Source: Glycomyces harbinensis (GTDB lineage Bacteria; Actinomycetota; Actinomycetes; Mycobacteriales; Micromonosporaceae). From it: 64,000 nt of DNA. This document shows, one piece after another, positions 30,957 to 39,136 of this stretch. A program made the position numbers and the translations under genes. Within the stretch, counting starts at the first letter, position 1. Each line of letters starts with the position of its first letter. Location of the stretch: positions 62,001 to 126,000 of the forward strand of contig NZ_FNAD01000020.1 of the NCBI RefSeq assembly GCF_900101745.1, given 5' to 3'. The notes under the pieces are model-generated. The model made no database searches and was not told the DNA's origin. It worked only from the letters and a program-made list of their open reading frames with translations.

Positions 30957-31937
30957 CTAGCCCTCCTCGGGCTCGCGGCGGCGGCGCATGAACGCGAGGA
31001 TCACGCCGCCCGCGATCACGAGGGCGCCCGCGGCGACGAGGACGAACGTGAGCGATGAGCCGGTGGTCGGCAGGAACGAGCCCGCCGGCGAGGTCGACGC
31101 CTCGCCCGGCGCGGAGTTCGAAGCGGCCGGTTCCGAACTGGACTCGGCCGGGCTCGACGATTCCTCGACCTCGGTGGAGGTCTCCTCGCCGGGCGTCGTC
31201 GGCTCCTCGGTCGCCGACGTGGGCGCTTCGCTCTCGGTGGTCGGCTCCTCCGTGGGGCTGGAGGGCTCCTCGCTCGTCGTGGACTCCTCGGTGGGCGAAG
31301 GCGTCTCGTCCGTCGGCGAGGTGGGTTCCTCGGTGGGGCTCGACGGCTCTTCCGTCGGCGAGGAGGGCTCTTCCGTCGGGCTCGACGGCTCCTCGCTCGG
31401 GGAGGTCGGCTCCTCCGAGGGCGTCTCCTCTCCCGGCTCGTCCTCGGTCGCCGGGCAGGTGTGCGTCAGGTTGAACCGCGGCTCCTTGCCGCCGCCGTTC
31501 CCGTTCCCGCCGCCGTCGTCCTCGAGGTCGACGGTCGCCTCGGCGTCGATGAGGGTCAGTCCGGCCGGAGTGATGATGTAGGCCTTGTTGTCGCCGCTGC
31601 CGTCGACGATCCCGCCGTCGTCCGCGGTGTTGTAGCGCAGGACGTTGCCGTCCTCGTCCTGGAAGACCGCCTCGATGTAGTGGAAGTTGCCTTCGGCCGG
31701 AACCGAATTCGGCAGGACGAACACCCAGCCGTCGAGCCAGTCGGCGGTGCCTTCGGGGATTTGGTCGCAGCTGCGGTCGCCGAAGCCCGCGGCGGTCGCG
31801 GGCACGTTGCCCGGGTTGATGCCGATGGTGGCGTCGTCGTCCGCGAGCGCGGGGACGGCGAAGGCGAGCGCGACGGCTCCCGCGATGCCCGCGGCGGCGC
31901 CTATGCCGATGGTCTTGTGGCGGCGTGTCAGTTTCAA
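30957..31937 (-). CDS. LPXTG-anchored surface protein 1
   Basis: 326-residue predicted wall-anchored protein. It has a signal peptide (KLTRRHKTIGIGAAAG then AVALAFAVPALAD), a globular domain of about 130 residues (NPGNVPATAAGFGDRSCDQI, DGWVFVLPNS, GDNKAYIITPAGLTLIDAEA, FNLTHTCP), a long Ser/Pro/Glu/Thr stalk of SSPTEEP-type repeats, the sortase motif LPTTG, a hydrophobic helix and an RRRREPEEG tail. The start is TTG 31937, chosen because GGAGA lies 8 nt upstream and the signal peptide begins there. Paralogue of the next gene. No sortase gene lies in this window. Function unknown; adhesion is only a guess. Confidence 0.85.
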   Translation of the reverse strand: MKLTRRHKTIGIGAAAGIAGAVALAFAVPALADDDATIGINPGNVPATAAGFGDRSCDQIPEGTADWLDGWVFVLPNSVPAEGNFHYIEAVFQDEDGNVLRYNTADDGGIVDGSGDNKAYIITPAGLTLIDAEATVDLEDDGGGNGNGGGKEPRFNLTHTCPATEDEPGEETPSEEPTSPSEEPSSPTEEPSSPTEEPSSPTEEPTSPTDETPSPTEESTTSEEPSSPTEEPTTESEAPTSATEEPTTPGEETSTEVEESSSPAESSSEPAASNSAPGEASTSPAGSFLPTTGSSLTFVLVAAGALVIAGGVILAFMRRRREPEEG

Positions 31938-32248
31938 GTCGGTCGTCTCCGTGATGGGTGGTCGGAGAGGTCGAACGAGCCGGGTTCGACGGCTCCGGAT
32001 ACGGCGTTGCCGTATGCGGGGATGGGCGATCCATTCACGTCGCCGGGACCTGAGGCGTTGCGTCTCTTTCGGATGAAAGCGAACTCCCCCGAACGGCTGA
32101 CCTGCCACTTCACCATAAAGAACCGCGAAAGCGACTCCCCGGACCGCCATCCGTGAAGGCGATGCCCCGTAGGCCGACCGCGGCCGAGAACCGCCGCGAA
32201 AAAAGCGGCGCCCCCGAGGTCCGACCTCGGGGGCGCCGCTGCGATCGG
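31938..32248. other. 311-bp gene-free stretch upstream of LPXTG gene 1
   Basis: Holds the terminator of the upstream LPXTG gene (32197-32240) and a probable leader for gene 1, with a 7-bp hairpin ATACGGC/GCCGTAT at 31999-32015. A promoter could not be fixed with confidence. I compared the leader with the c-di-AMP (ydaO) riboswitch pattern and found no match. Confidence 0.5.
32197..32240 (-). terminator. rho-independent terminator of LPXTG gene 2
   Basis: Perfect 17-bp stem (32204-32220 with 32224-32240, 3-nt loop). On the minus strand it is followed by a run of T (complement of A 32199-32204). The clearest terminator in the window. Confidence 0.9.
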
Positions 32249-32926
32249 CTACCAGTCCTGGGCCTCGCGGCGGCGGCGCTGCACCGCGAACAGGACGGCG
32301 CCGGCCGCGGCGAGGGCCGCGGCCGAGACGAGCGCGACCGTCAGCGGGGTGCCGGTGGTCGGCAGCGTGGAGCCGCCCGGGGTGGTCGACTCCTCGCCGG
32401 GGGCCGAGGACTCCTCACCCGGGGTCGTGGGCTCTTCGCCAGGGCTGGAAGGGTTCTCACCGGGCGTACCGGGGCACGCGTGGGTGAGGTTGAACTGCGC
32501 GCCCTCGTCGGGGTCGGTCACCTGGGCGTCGGCGTCCAGGAGGGTCCATCCGGCGGGCGTGATGATGTACGCCTTGTTGTCGCCGCTGCCTTCGACGATG
32601 CCGCCGTGGTCGCCGGTGGTGCGGGTCTGCTCGGAGCCGCCCTCGTCCGCGAAGGTCGCGGTGACGGAGATGAAGTTGCCTTCGGCCCCGGCCGCGGCGG
32701 GCAGTACGAAGACCCAGCCGTCGAGGTCGCCGGCGAGGTCGCCGGGCAGGTTGTCGCAGGAGTTGTCCTCGAAGTCCGCGGCGGTCGTGGGCACGTTGCC
32801 GGGGTTGATCTGGATGATGACCGTCTCGGCCTGGGCGGGCGAGGCGAAGGCCAGGGCTCCGCAGAGGCCTGCGGCGGCCGCGAGGCCGAGCGCGCCGCGG
32901 GCCGAGGGGGTTCGCTTGAATTCCAT
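32249..32926 (-). CDS. LPXTG-anchored surface protein 2
   Basis: 225-residue paralogue of the neighbouring surface protein, with the same architecture. A signal peptide ends near AFASPAQAE. The globular domain carries NPGNVPTTAADFEDNSCDNL, DGWVFVLPAA, GDNKAYIITPAGWTLLDADA and FNLTHACP. A shorter Pro/Ser/Glu stalk with TTPGEES-type repeats leads to LPTTG, a membrane helix and RRRREAQDW. The two Cys of the domain match those of protein 1 and could form one disulfide. ATG 32926 was chosen at the signal peptide start; an upstream in-frame ATG adds an implausible charged extension. Confidence 0.86.
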   Translation of the reverse strand: MEFKRTPSARGALGLAAAAGLCGALAFASPAQAETVIIQINPGNVPTTAADFEDNSCDNLPGDLAGDLDGWVFVLPAAAGAEGNFISVTATFADEGGSEQTRTTGDHGGIVEGSGDNKAYIITPAGWTLLDADAQVTDPDEGAQFNLTHACPGTPGENPSSPGEEPTTPGEESSAPGEESTTPGGSTLPTTGTPLTVALVSAAALAAAGAVLFAVQRRRREAQDW

Positions 32927-33074
32927 TGTCGCTGCTCTCGGTATTCGTGTGATGGGAACGAATGTGCCGGATTCGGGATGGGCACTCTTCTCACGTTCGA
33001 GATGTACGTGAGGTTGCGACACGTTCTAGTGACGGACGGGGACCGCCCGTCGCAAGCGGTCACCGCCGAGATGG

Positions 33075-35493: not shown

Positions 35494-36000
35494 TCAGCAG
35501 GCGGACGCCAACGCCGCCTGGCCGACCGAGATCCCGCACACGGACCATTTGAATGCTCCGGTGACATCCGCATTCGCCAGCGAGACCCCGCTCCCGGGAC
35601 TCATCGGGTCCTGCGCGCCCTCGATCGAGTTGTCGCAGACGGCGCCCTGGGTCGTGGCGCCGACGGCGACCCCGCAGACATTCCAGTTCGCGAAGTTCCG
35701 CAGGTCGGCGTTCGCTCCCGACGGCATCCCCCCGTAGCCCGCAGGGGCTTCGGGCAGCTGCCCGCCGATCGCTTCGATCTCGTCCTCCGAAGGTGATCCG
35801 AGGACCGTGTCGCAGACCGTGTCGGCGAGCTCGCCGGTCTGGTCCGACTCGCACACGCTCGGCAGGACCGAGTCGTACTCGGATTCCACGGTGACGAGCG
35901 TCAGCCAGTCGGGCGTCGAGGCCTGTGCGGCCCCTCCCGAGAGCGCCGCCGCCACTGCGGCGGCAGCGGCCGAGGCCGCGACCATGGTGGTGTTTCGCAT
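35494..36000 (-). CDS. Secreted protein with degenerate C-x12-C repeats
   Basis: 168 residues. The signal peptide (MRNTTMVAASAAAAAVAAAL to AAQAS) predicts export. The mature part holds three cysteine pairs, each spaced C-x12-C: CESDQTGELADTVC, CGVAVGATTQGAVC and CGISVGQAALASAC, the last ending the protein. The last two are preceded by NWNV and KWSV and by SGVSLANADV, matching the frame of the WQICGQNV repeats in the three genes upstream. I therefore read it as a diverged member of the same family. Function unknown. ATG 36000 has AGAGG just upstream. Confidence 0.82.
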   Translation of the reverse strand: MRNTTMVAASAAAAAVAAALSGGAAQASTPDWLTLVTVESEYDSVLPSVCESDQTGELADTVCDTVLGSPSEDEIEAIGGQLPEAPAGYGGMPSGANADLRNFANWNVCGVAVGATTQGAVCDNSIEGAQDPMSPGSGVSLANADVTGAFKWSVCGISVGQAALASAC

Positions 36001-36016
36001 GTACCTCTACCTCTTC

Positions 36017-36175
36017 TCGACCAAACCGGTGAAGGTAGACCGATCTCGTGGCCGCTTTCGGGTTTTCGACCAGACCGGGAAAGGCCGACCGATCTCGTGG
36101 CCGCTTCAGGTTTTCGACCGAACCGGCGAGGGCCGACCGATCTCGTGGTCGTTTCGGGCCGAACCGGAGGTGGCC
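36017..36175. repeat. 48-49 bp tandem repeat, about 3.3 copies
   Basis: Units begin at 36017, 36066 and 36114 (TCGACC...ACCGG), each containing GACCGATCTCGTGG, with a partial fourth unit. The array ends 16 nt before the ATG at 36000 and fills nearly the whole gap to the next gene, so it occupies the promoter/leader region. Confidence 0.88.
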
Positions 36176-36223: not shown

Positions 36224-36778
36224 TTAGTAGTCGCCCTGGTCGTCGCCCTTGTCGGGGTTGTCGCCGTCGTCGCTGATGTGGTCGGCGTTCAGGCACTGCT
36301 GGTAGAGCGACGGCGCGACGCCGACGTTCTGCCCGCAGATCTGCCAGTGCGCCGCGTCCGACACGTCCAGGTTGGCGGCGGAGACGTCGCCCGCGGTGAC
36401 GCCCGAACCGGCGTTGTCGCCGATGTGGTCGCGGTTGTCGCAGGTCTGCTCGAACGACTGGGTCAGCACGTTCTGGCCGCAGATCTGCCAGTGCGCCGCG
36501 TCCGAGGCGTCGACGTTGGCCAGCGACACGTCGCCGGCGTTGACGCCGGAGCCCTGGTCGTCACCGAAGTGGTCGCGGTTGTCGCAGTCCTGGTCGTAGG
36601 ACGTGGTCAGCACGTTCTGGCCGCAGATCTGCCAGTGGGCGGCGCTCGAGGCGTCGATGTTCACCAGGGAGACGGCGCCCGGGACGGGACCCGAAGCGGC
36701 GGCCATGACGGGCGCGGCAGCGCCGAGAGCGGCGATCGCGCCTGCGGCGGCGGCAGTCGCGGTGAGAACCTTGCGCAT
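36224..36778 (-). CDS. Secreted two-cysteine repeat protein, three repeats
   Basis: 184 residues: signal peptide (MRKVLTATAAAAGAIAALGA to VMAA), then three repeats of 48 residues and an acidic Asp/Gly-rich tail. Each repeat has the pattern VSLxNxDxSxAAHWQICGQN, then V, a short variable run, Q-x-C-x-N-x-D-H, and a Gly/Ser linker. Each repeat has exactly two Cys (12-13 residues between), so one disulfide per repeat is likely. There is no catalytic motif; a structural surface role is the natural reading. I do not recognise the family. Chaplins are a loose analogy (short secreted CGN...C repeats), not a match. ATG 36778 has AAGGA 9 nt upstream. Confidence 0.85.
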   Translation of the reverse strand: MRKVLTATAAAAGAIAALGAAAPVMAAASGPVPGAVSLVNIDASSAAHWQICGQNVLTTSYDQDCDNRDHFGDDQGSGVNAGDVSLANVDASDAAHWQICGQNVLTQSFEQTCDNRDHIGDNAGSGVTAGDVSAANLDVSDAAHWQICGQNVGVAPSLYQQCLNADHISDDGDNPDKGDDQGDY

Positions 36779-36876
36779 GTGTTGCGTTCCTTACCGTTTA
36801 GTAGGAATTTGGCTCGGCCGCAGCGCTGCTGCGGCCGATGGGTGGGGCGGGCCCAGCGGGCCCGCCCCGGGTCGAA

Positions 36877-37254
36877 TTACTCGGCCGCGTGCGTGATGTG
36901 GTCGTAGTTCAGGCACTGCTGGTCGAGCGACGGCGCGACGCCGACGTTCTGGCCGCAGATCTGCCAGTGGGCGGCGTCCGAGATGTCCAGGTTGCCGAGC
37001 GAAGCGTCGCCCGCCGTGACGCCGGACTGCGGGCCCTGGCCGATGTGGTCGCGGTTGTCGCAGACCTGGCCGAACGACTGGGTCAGCACGTTCTGGCCGC
37101 AGATCTGCCAGTGCGCCGCGCTCGAGGCGTCGATGTTGACCAGGCTGACCGGGCCAGCCGCGACGCCCGAGCTCTGAGCCATGGCGGTTCCGGCGGAGCC
37201 GAGGGCGGCGACGGCGCCGGCAGCGGCGCCAGCAACGATGAGAGCCTTGCGCAT
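36877..37254 (-). CDS. Secreted two-cysteine repeat protein, two repeats (copy A)
   Basis: 125 residues: signal peptide (MRKALIVAGAAAGAVAALGS), then two 48-residue repeats of the WQICGQNV type. The first repeat is identical to that of copy B at 37391-37759, from VSLVNIDASSAAHWQICGQN through the following linker SGVTA. The second ends QQCLNYDHITHAAE. It encodes four Cys in the mature protein. ATG 37254 has GGGGA 8 nt upstream. The three repeat genes lie head-to-tail with 98- and 136-bp gaps and may each have their own promoter. Confidence 0.85.
   Translation of the reverse strand: MRKALIVAGAAAGAVAALGSAGTAMAQSSGVAAGPVSLVNIDASSAAHWQICGQNVLTQSFGQVCDNRDHIGQGPQSGVTAGDASLGNLDISDAAHWQICGQNVGVAPSLDQQCLNYDHITHAAE
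37013..37152 (-). repeat. 140-bp perfect repeat, copy 1
   Basis: Identical to 37518-37657. Covers the end of the signal-proximal region and all of repeat 1 in copy A. Confidence 0.9.
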
Positions 37255-37390
37255 GTTGAGTTTCCCCGTTCTCTGTGGATCGATTTCGAATTTCCGTGGC
37301 GCCGCCGGCCCGTTTGAGGCCGGCGACTTTCGGAAGCCTTGTCCTCCATGGGATCGTCAGCCCGCTGGGGGCTGACGGCCCCGGGAAGTC

Positions 37391-37759
37391 CTAGTGGTTC
37401 ATGTGGTCGGTGTTGAGGCACTGCTGGTCGAGCGACGGCGCGGTGAGGACGTTCTGGCCGCAGATCTGCCAGTGCGCGGCGTCCGAGATGTCCAGGTTGG
37501 CGGCGGAGACGTCGCCGGCCGTGACGCCGGACTGCGGGCCCTGGCCGATGTGGTCGCGGTTGTCGCAGACCTGGCCGAACGACTGGGTCAGCACGTTCTG
37601 GCCGCAGATCTGCCAGTGCGCCGCGCTCGAGGCGTCGATGTTGACCAGGCTGACCGGCCCGGCATCGACGCCGGAGCTGTAGCCGGCCATGGCGGGGGAG
37701 GCGATACCCGCGGCGGCGGCGGCAGCAGCGGCGGCGGCGACGTAGAGAACCTTGCGCAT
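37391..37759 (-). CDS. Secreted two-cysteine repeat protein, two repeats (copy B)
   Basis: 122 residues. The signal peptide contains a run of 10-11 alanines (MRKVLYVAAAAAAAAAAGIA), followed by GYSSGVDAGP and two WQICGQNV repeats, ending CLNTDHMNH. ATG 37759 was chosen at the MRKV start shared with its paralogues; AAGGA lies about 11 nt upstream. A longer frame upstream has no signal peptide and is rejected. Nearly the same mature protein as copy A, which suggests recent duplication or gene conversion. Confidence 0.84.
   Translation of the reverse strand: MRKVLYVAAAAAAAAAAGIASPAMAGYSSGVDAGPVSLVNIDASSAAHWQICGQNVLTQSFGQVCDNRDHIGQGPQSGVTAGDVSAANLDISDAAHWQICGQNVLTAPSLDQQCLNTDHMNH
37518..37657 (-). 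repeat. 140-bp perfect repeat, copy 2
   Basis: Identical to 37013-37152, 505 bp away in the same orientation. Confidence 0.9.
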
Positions 37760-37960
37760 GAGTTGCGGTTTCCTTCTGAGTTGTGCGCCCGTTCGTTCGG
37801 GCGGCTTTCTTTGGTTCCCCGCCTCTGTGGAGGCGGCGGTAACGACCTGACCGCGCGTCGGCGCGCCGGAGAGCGCTGGCGAGCGAGATGCTCTAGCGCA
37901 TGTACCGGTGGGAGTTTCGAAGGCGGACTTCAAGCTCCCCGCGCACCGACGCGCGGAGGC

Positions 37961-38977
37961 CTAGTCTGGGGCGACGGACAGCTCGGCGGCGCGGTCCAAC
38001 GGCCGCCCCAATTCCCCGATCACCGTGCGGGAGAGTGACACCTCTGCCCCCCCGGCGGACGGGGAGACGCAGACAGCGTTATGGCCGCTGTCGACGCTGA
38101 TACCGGCGGTCGAGCCAGTGGCTCCACCGGGGATGATCTTCAGGTCCGGAAGGCCGGGGCCGTCGAATACCCACGACCTGGCAGCGGTGCGCGGCTCGCC
38201 GTGCACCGCTTCGACTTCGGATCGGTCCGTCCCCCGCTCGCCAGGTTCGGCGGCGGAGCACTCGGTGGCGGCGGCCGGCCGGCCTTGCTGCACTCCGTGG
38301 AGTGCCGCCGCCACCTCGCTGGAGTCGTGCGCTGCCGTAAGCGCGGTGAAGCTCGGCTGTCCTGCGGCATCGGCGAGGACGCTCCCGGGCGTCGTCTCGT
38401 CGCCGAGGTGCAGGCCATCGGTCACCAGTCGCGCCAGTACGTCGACCTGATCGGTCGGGGGCGCGACAGTCTCGTAGACACCGGACACCGCGGGGGCTGA
38501 GCCGTCCGCAATGGAGGCCGTTCCCTTCACCAGGGTTCCCACCAGCGGTGCCACTACTTCGGCAGTGCCGTCTCCGACGGACTCGTCTTCCAAGTCGAGC
38601 AATCCAGGTCCGGCGCCGCCCGGCAGCATCGTGCGCACGGAGCCGTCCGTCTCGTCCATCAGCGTTTCAACCGGTTCGGAAAGGCCCGACACCAGCCCGG
38701 TGACCTCCCCCTGCCCCGCCGGCGGCCGATGTCCCTGCTGGTTTTGCGGGACCAGTCGCGCGGCCAGGCGCGACATGTCGGATACCTCTGCGGAGAGCGG
38801 GTCTGTCATCGAGGCAAGGCCCTGCGATGCGGTGGAATCGTCTGATGCCCAAGCGGACGCCGCCATGGCGAAGGCCCCCAGAAGAAGGGAGCCGAATGCG
38901 GTGAGCGCGGCGCCGAGGAGGAATCGGAGCACGCTGGCGCGGCGAGTGTCCTCGCTGCCTCCGGCGATGCGTCCCAT
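37961..38977 (-). CDS. Secreted or membrane-anchored protein of unknown function
   Basis: 338 residues. A short charged N-terminus (MGRIAGGSEDTRRASVLR) is followed by a hydrophobic segment FLLGAALTAFGSLLLGAFAM ending at ASAWAS, either a signal peptide or a single anchor. The rest is hydrophilic and low in recognisable motifs, with two cysteines. ATG 38977 was preferred to an ATG 51 nt upstream because GGGGGAGA sits in front of it. Codon use is a little less GC-biased than in the neighbours. Directly upstream of the repeat-protein genes on the same strand, so it may belong to the same island; I do not recognise the family. Confidence 0.7.
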   Translation of the reverse strand: MGRIAGGSEDTRRASVLRFLLGAALTAFGSLLLGAFAMAASAWASDDSTASQGLASMTDPLSAEVSDMSRLAARLVPQNQQGHRPPAGQGEVTGLVSGLSEPVETLMDETDGSVRTMLPGGAGPGLLDLEDESVGDGTAEVVAPLVGTLVKGTASIADGSAPAVSGVYETVAPPTDQVDVLARLVTDGLHLGDETTPGSVLADAAGQPSFTALTAAHDSSEVAAALHGVQQGRPAAATECSAAEPGERGTDRSEVEAVHGEPRTAARSWVFDGPGLPDLKIIPGGATGSTAGISVDSGHNAVCVSPSAGGAEVSLSRTVIGELGRPLDRAAELSVAPD

Positions 38978-39136
38978 CGTCTCCCCCGTCGTCCTGAACC
39001 TGATCGCGAGCGGCCCTGCCGCTCGCATCTAGAAGAACGAAACCGGCCCGAGGAGGGATACGGGGTGAACTATGTTTTCTTGCCGAAAATAGGGCGAGTC
39101 GGACTCACGGCAGCCGTTTCCTCACGCACTGCACCG

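Follow-up and report, generated by a model that had tools for sequence, protein, structure and literature searches.

Chaplins are the hydrophobic sheath proteins of Streptomyces and the textbook coat of its aerial hyphae. Coat proteins outside Streptomyces are, to our knowledge, mostly unknown, and we know of no rodlin sequence that carries a 48-residue two-cysteine repeat of the kind described below. The chaplin domain is described as having three GN motifs placed 12-13 residues apart (PMC13251363). Rodlins (RdlA/RdlB of Streptomyces) are essentially limited to streptomycetes (PMC4255298). Genera related to Glycomyces clearly use other coat proteins; in Actinoplanes missouriensis two hydrophobic, sortase-anchored surface proteins, CwpA and CwpB, do chaplin-like work without chaplin domains (PMC13251363).

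The window analyzed here is a stretch of 64,000 nucleotides from Glycomyces harbinensis (contig NZ_FNAD01000020.1, positions 62,001 to 126,000). It holds a cassette of five genes, four of which encode small proteins with signal-peptide-like N-termini and cysteine-pair repeats; the fifth is of a type that elsewhere stands beside chaplin genes.

The cassette and its surroundings

Three adjacent minus-strand open reading frames (A, B and C; 36224-37759), each with a good ribosome-binding site, encode signal peptides followed by two, two and three copies of the repeat, just as the first-pass annotation had described them. The cassette extends beyond that description: a diverged fourth gene, D, and an upstream companion gene also belong to it. 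Its features, in window coordinates, are the following.

37961..39028, minus strand: companion gene, upstream of A; 355 residues; a membrane segment near the N-terminus is followed by an exported part of low complexity and the conserved C-terminus GRPLDRAAELSVAPD
37391..37759, minus strand: gene A; 122 residues, with a Sec signal peptide (cleavage after ...SPAMA) and two repeats
36877..37254, minus strand: gene B; 125 residues, with a signal peptide, then two repeats
36224..36778, minus strand: gene C; 184 residues, with a signal peptide, three repeats, then a tail that is acidic and closes with KGDDQGDY
36017..36158, no strand assigned: non-coding tandem array lying between C and D, made up of 2.9 copies of a 48-bp unit
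35494..36000, minus strand: gene D; 168 residues, with a signal peptide, an N-terminal cysteine-pair segment, two diverged repeats and cysteine as the last residue
35443..35473, minus strand: intrinsic terminator-like hairpin with a 14-bp stem, downstream of D

The N-termini of A, B and C are short, hydrophobic MRK... signal peptides with an AxA cleavage site. The ATG of gene A at 37759 is preceded by the ribosome-binding site AGGAAA; a longer start in the list of open reading frames, the TTG at 37933, is not required. Mature A has a pI of 4.35 and lacks lysine; taken together, mature A and B (37394-37684 and 36880-37179) are strongly acidic (pI about 4.4) and contain no lysine at all. No sorting signal (a C-terminal LPXTG or LAXTG with a membrane segment) was found in the tails of A-D. 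Gene D is a diverged paralogue of A-C, both by alignment and by its matches to the repeat HMM (1e-17 and 5e-13); its two repeats read ANWNVCGVAV... and FKWSVCGISV..., each with a second cysteine. The strong hairpin downstream of D probably marks the end of the cassette.

Neighboring the cassette, two LPXTG-type sortase substrate genes (30957-32150 and 32249-33022) adjoin a GH95 gene. This GH95/sortase-substrate neighborhood is retained in locus L065, and one of the two substrate genes also in L082; the region thus has the character of a cell-surface island.

A 48-residue repeat with one cysteine pair

All seven repeats in the window contain AAHWQICGQNV and a distal C-x-N-x-D-H, with one cysteine pair each. 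The DNA pattern of the core has seven matches across the 6.17-Mb genome, every one of them in A-C, and gene C has a 144-bp (48-residue) period (TRF). The core had been called invariant, which is true of the seven window repeats but not of the family as a whole: the tryptophan, the CG, the second cysteine and N-x-D are retained family-wide (except that the tryptophan is missing from the most distant members); H and RDH are variable, with histidine positions replaced in some members (AKW, AQW) and RDH missing in L085-L087, in D and in others. The two cysteines per repeat, described in the same annotation as 12-13 residues apart, keep that distance almost throughout the family: 12 residues separate them in 132 of 185 repeats, and 13 do so in 52. 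Copy number ranges from 2 to 4 repeats per gene across the family, L082 having 4+4.

Searches of Pfam, NCBIfam and PHROGs yielded nothing that rose above noise. A PDB sequence search with two profiles returned no match, and the PDB searches found no lectin or inhibitor fold for the repeat. The literature searched offered no description of the repeat family and no paper that meaningfully joins Glycomyces with chaplins. The impression that this is an undescribed family of secreted two-cysteine repeat proteins was correct in that Pfam and NCBIfam have no match for it, and the family is real and genus-wide.

The AlphaFold2 model of protein A, built on 52 aligned sequences, is all-β at low confidence (pLDDT 58.6, pTM 0.43). 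For each repeat this low-confidence model predicts two main strands (VSLVNID and HWQICG) and a short one at the second cysteine; the model of protein D has a pLDDT of 35.5. A fold search with the protein A model against the PDB gave no match, to which little meaning attaches at a pLDDT of 58.6. These predictions for A and D do not establish a fold.

Distribution, conservation and selection

Of 22 Glycomyces genomes 21 contain the repeat, and the one that lacks it is a 3.3-Mb assembly in 360 contigs; every one of the 20 named Glycomyces genomes has the companion gene. Gene order (companion-A-B-C-D) holds genus-wide, some species being one small gene short. In the wider GTDB family 30 of 301 genomes have matches, several of the weakest probably due to chance; in broader samples, 396 genomes from the phylum and 346 from the class, the repeat is essentially absent. 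The named relatives that carry the family are Glycomyces species, Phytomonospora endophytica and Actinorhabdospora filicis; the clear non-Glycomyces members are L011/L114 (from a 3.54-Mb genome), L012/L080 and L013/L077, and L017/L115 is a single-gene relative with repeats reading ...AAHVPVCGVN... and ...AAHLPICGVN.... Beyond the genus, the repeat family is rare and limited to close relatives. Two weak matches outside the lineage (L036 and L127) fall in spurious frames of ordinary genes and were discarded, as were L018 and L019.

The C-termini of C and D are conserved, each in its own way. KGxDQGD[YFWH] stands at the extreme end of all 21 complete C genes, and cysteine is the final residue in 18 of 19 D genes, the exception being L081. 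Such paralogue-specific ends argue for a division of labor among subunits. In L081 (7393-7845) the D gene of G. amatae stops early and the cysteine of its last repeat is missing, possibly because of a frameshift or an assembly error.

Comparison of A with its G. artemisiae orthologue gives dN 0.095 and dS 0.295, and the corresponding comparison for D gives dN 0.208 and dS 0.516. A dN/dS of about 0.3-0.4 signifies constraint, not diversification. Purifying selection thus acts on A, B and C, which rules them out as chance open reading frames. A and B share 285 nucleotides at 92% identity (36889-37173 and 37394-37678); their paralogue dS, 0.208, lies below that between orthologues, so that gene conversion has probably taken place inside the cassette.

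Comparison with chaplins and other surface proteins

Ordinary chaplins are encoded on another contig of the same Glycomyces genome, so that the two-cysteine family supplements chaplins and does not replace them. Like chaplins (PF03777, ChpA-C), A-D are small Sec-exported repeat proteins with one cysteine pair per unit, are encoded by several tandem paralogues with the same type of companion upstream, and are as anchorless as the short chaplins. Contrary to the first-pass annotation, cysteine spacing does not separate the two: 13, the commonest value among this lineage's chaplins (51 of 68), falls within the 12-13 of the repeat. Neither A-D nor their distant relatives match PF03777 even with the E cutoff relaxed to 1 or to 10, whereas the chaplin of Glycomyces harbinensis itself, the positive control, scores 1e-28; GN motifs are absent from the repeat, which has AG[DP], CGQN and CDN instead. 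Unlike chaplins, moreover, the repeat is four residues longer before CG and has a conserved tryptophan (lost in the most distant members), and the family has its paralogue-specific conserved tails and coexists with true chaplins in one genome.

Profile-profile comparison of repeat and chaplin (hhalign) gives a score of 12.95 and an E value of 0.014; the alignment places [VI]CG and both cysteines in register, with a score that column-shuffled controls also reach, 2 of 60 surpassing it. One earlier shuffle scored 129.5; it is unexplained, did not recur in the 60 and was disregarded. Acidic and, with a mean GRAVY of -0.13 as against +0.32 for 98 chaplin domains, slightly hydrophilic, the repeats do not imply a hydrophobic sheath of the chaplin kind. 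No near-consensus BldN-type site was found upstream of A, B or C across Glycomyces, in a weak test that relies on a Streptomyces consensus. By analogy, the family may be chaplin-like in its working without being a member of the chaplins.

Rodlins, as secreted β-rich surface proteins with a role alongside chaplins, are a functional analogue; with E allowed up to 1, neither Pfam nor NCBIfam matches A-D to a rodlin. CwpA and CwpB, which are surface β-cluster proteins, resemble A-D in coming from a related lineage; they differ in their hydrophobicity and in their sortase anchor, for which A-D lack the signal. The parallel with chaplins, which had been called loose, does exist, and it is stronger than first thought because the type of companion gene next to A also sits beside chaplin genes.

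A type of companion gene found at repeat and chaplin loci

Canonical chaplin genes in six of the loci examined (L112, L118, L119, L121, L123 and L124) are directly preceded by a gene of the companion type. These chaplin-linked companions, which belong to Micromonosporaceae and relatives, are 326-399 residues long. Their N-terminal part holds a membrane segment, their body is of low complexity and their C-terminus reads ...[AT]VSPD; those that were scanned against Pfam and NCBIfam match no family. They lie as follows.

L112, 732-1712: chaplin-linked companion
L118, 3254-4390: chaplin-linked companion
L119, 4621-5820: chaplin-linked companion
L121, 3331-4383: chaplin-linked companion
L123, 3943-5055: chaplin-linked companion
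L124, 5650-6714: chaplin-linked companion

Companions also lie upstream of two-cysteine repeat genes in L065, L077 and L080, in the latter two as positional equivalents. Upstream of the repeat family the C-termini read ...SVAPD (Glycomyces), ...TVAPD (Phytomonospora) and ...IIAPD (Actinorhabdospora). Among 695 open reading frames of at least 100 residues in these regions, all 10 that end in [VIAT][SA]PD are companions. When 720 open reading frames are ranked by the similarity of their last 16 residues to those of the window companion, the top six are companions, with a best score of 39 against a mean of -13.7 (sd 9.8). Full-length similarity between chaplin-linked and Glycomyces companions is not significant; architecture and C-terminus are what they have in common. 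Of the chaplin loci examined, about half, that of Glycomyces harbinensis itself among them, are without a companion. In view of these last two facts common ancestry of the companion types is no more than likely.

L112 brings several of these elements together. Its companion and chaplin genes are followed, about 2 kb on, by a second companion, three tandem genes for secreted 120-residue cysteine-pair proteins and a distant relative of the repeat (68 residues, AKLPVCGLNVANQTLAPDC, E 4.8e-5). We take the genome to be that of Stackebrandtia nassauensis. Chaplin-like proteins have been reported in that species (reviewed in PMC4255298).

A second family of small secreted cysteine-pair proteins, here called C-xx-NW, was noted at L112 (6853-8156), at L141 of Glycomyces harbinensis (1471-1881) and at L136 (1435-1881). 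Its motifs read NVLSNLCIGNW... and NICALNWDW..., it occurs in Stackebrandtia-like, Glycomyces and related genomes, and it has no Pfam match. Its members are like A-D in size (about 120-140 residues), signal peptide and two cysteine-pair units, and in L112 take the position of A, B and C behind the companion gene; they differ in sequence motif and in their longer cysteine spacing.

A proposed extracellular layer and its alternatives

Because the companion type adjoining it elsewhere neighbors chaplin genes, the cassette probably builds part of a filament or spore coat. The reading that we favor, with a probability of about 0.5, is that the five genes provide a non-anchored, disulfide-locked extracellular repeat layer on Glycomyces hyphae or spores that functions somewhat as chaplins do. 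A, B, C and D would pass out of the cell through Sec and be released unanchored to the wall. Every repeat would become a small β unit closed by one disulfide, and these units would polymerize or stack, within and between proteins, as an acidic β-repeat layer on hyphae or spores; its timing, like its location on aerial hyphae or spores, we infer. A and B would serve as two-unit subunits, and C and D, each with a conserved C-terminus of its own, as specialized linking or ending subunits. The companion, held in the membrane through its N-terminal segment, would aid export or surface assembly, and its counterparts would presumably do likewise for chaplins.

Several other explanations account for part of what is seen. 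That A-D are true chaplins, so diverged that hydrophobicity and GN motifs have been lost while the same amyloid sheath is still made, is unlikely. The weak profile alignment, the similar cysteine spacing, the common companion type and the small, secreted, repeated and multi-copy nature of the proteins would all fit such an origin, but the profile score is no better than that of shuffled controls, PF03777 finds the genome's own chaplin and not A-D, the GRAVY values have opposite signs and true chaplins are present in the same genome. Decidedly unlikely, in our estimate, is a soluble binding protein (an adhesin, lectin or enzyme inhibitor), for instance one acting on glycans freed by the adjoining GH95 enzyme. 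Acidic, secreted multi-repeat proteins of varied repeat number (2-4) next to a GH95 gene invite that interpretation; outside Glycomyces, however, GH95 is not tied to the family (L077, L080), no lectin or inhibitor fold was found in the PDB searches, and beyond W, Cys, Gly and N-x-D there are no conserved non-structural residues.

We give very little credence to secreted antimicrobial or inter-strain competition peptides, disulfide-rich and bacteriocin-like, with the companion as an immunity or export factor: the locus lacks processing, immunity and transporter genes, the family is present in nearly every species of the genus and not patchily, dN/dS is about 0.3-0.4, and the companion type is found at chaplin loci as well, even if small, secreted, disulfide-bearing tandem paralogues beside a membrane-protein gene have the look of such a system. 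Extracellular metal or redox buffering through the His, Asp and Cys of the repeat is equally hard to credit. Most Glycomyces members do have H-W, two cysteines and D-x-D/H in each repeat, but both histidine positions are lost in members of the family and only the cysteine pair, W, G and N-x-D are retained; metal binding is rejected because the histidines are not conserved.

If the extracellular-layer reading is extended, the cassette might represent a second, chaplin-independent extracellular polymer of actinomycetes, made of acidic, disulfide-locked β-repeat subunits with dedicated linking or ending subunits (the KGxDQGDY tail of C, the C-terminal cysteine of D), and the membrane-tethered companion, in also serving chaplins, a general and so far unrecognized assembly factor for actinobacterial surface layers. 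This extension is tentative and, taken whole, rather doubtful.

Implications

That the cassette is a new system in any categorical sense is not supported; a lineage-specific variation on the theme of secreted coat proteins describes it better. It is a genus-wide, undescribed candidate coat of Glycomyces, and its companion gene provides a sequence marker for what may be an assembly factor common to it and to chaplins that is unnamed in the databases searched. If confirmed, the cassette would show a chaplin-like layer supplemented by a different polymer.
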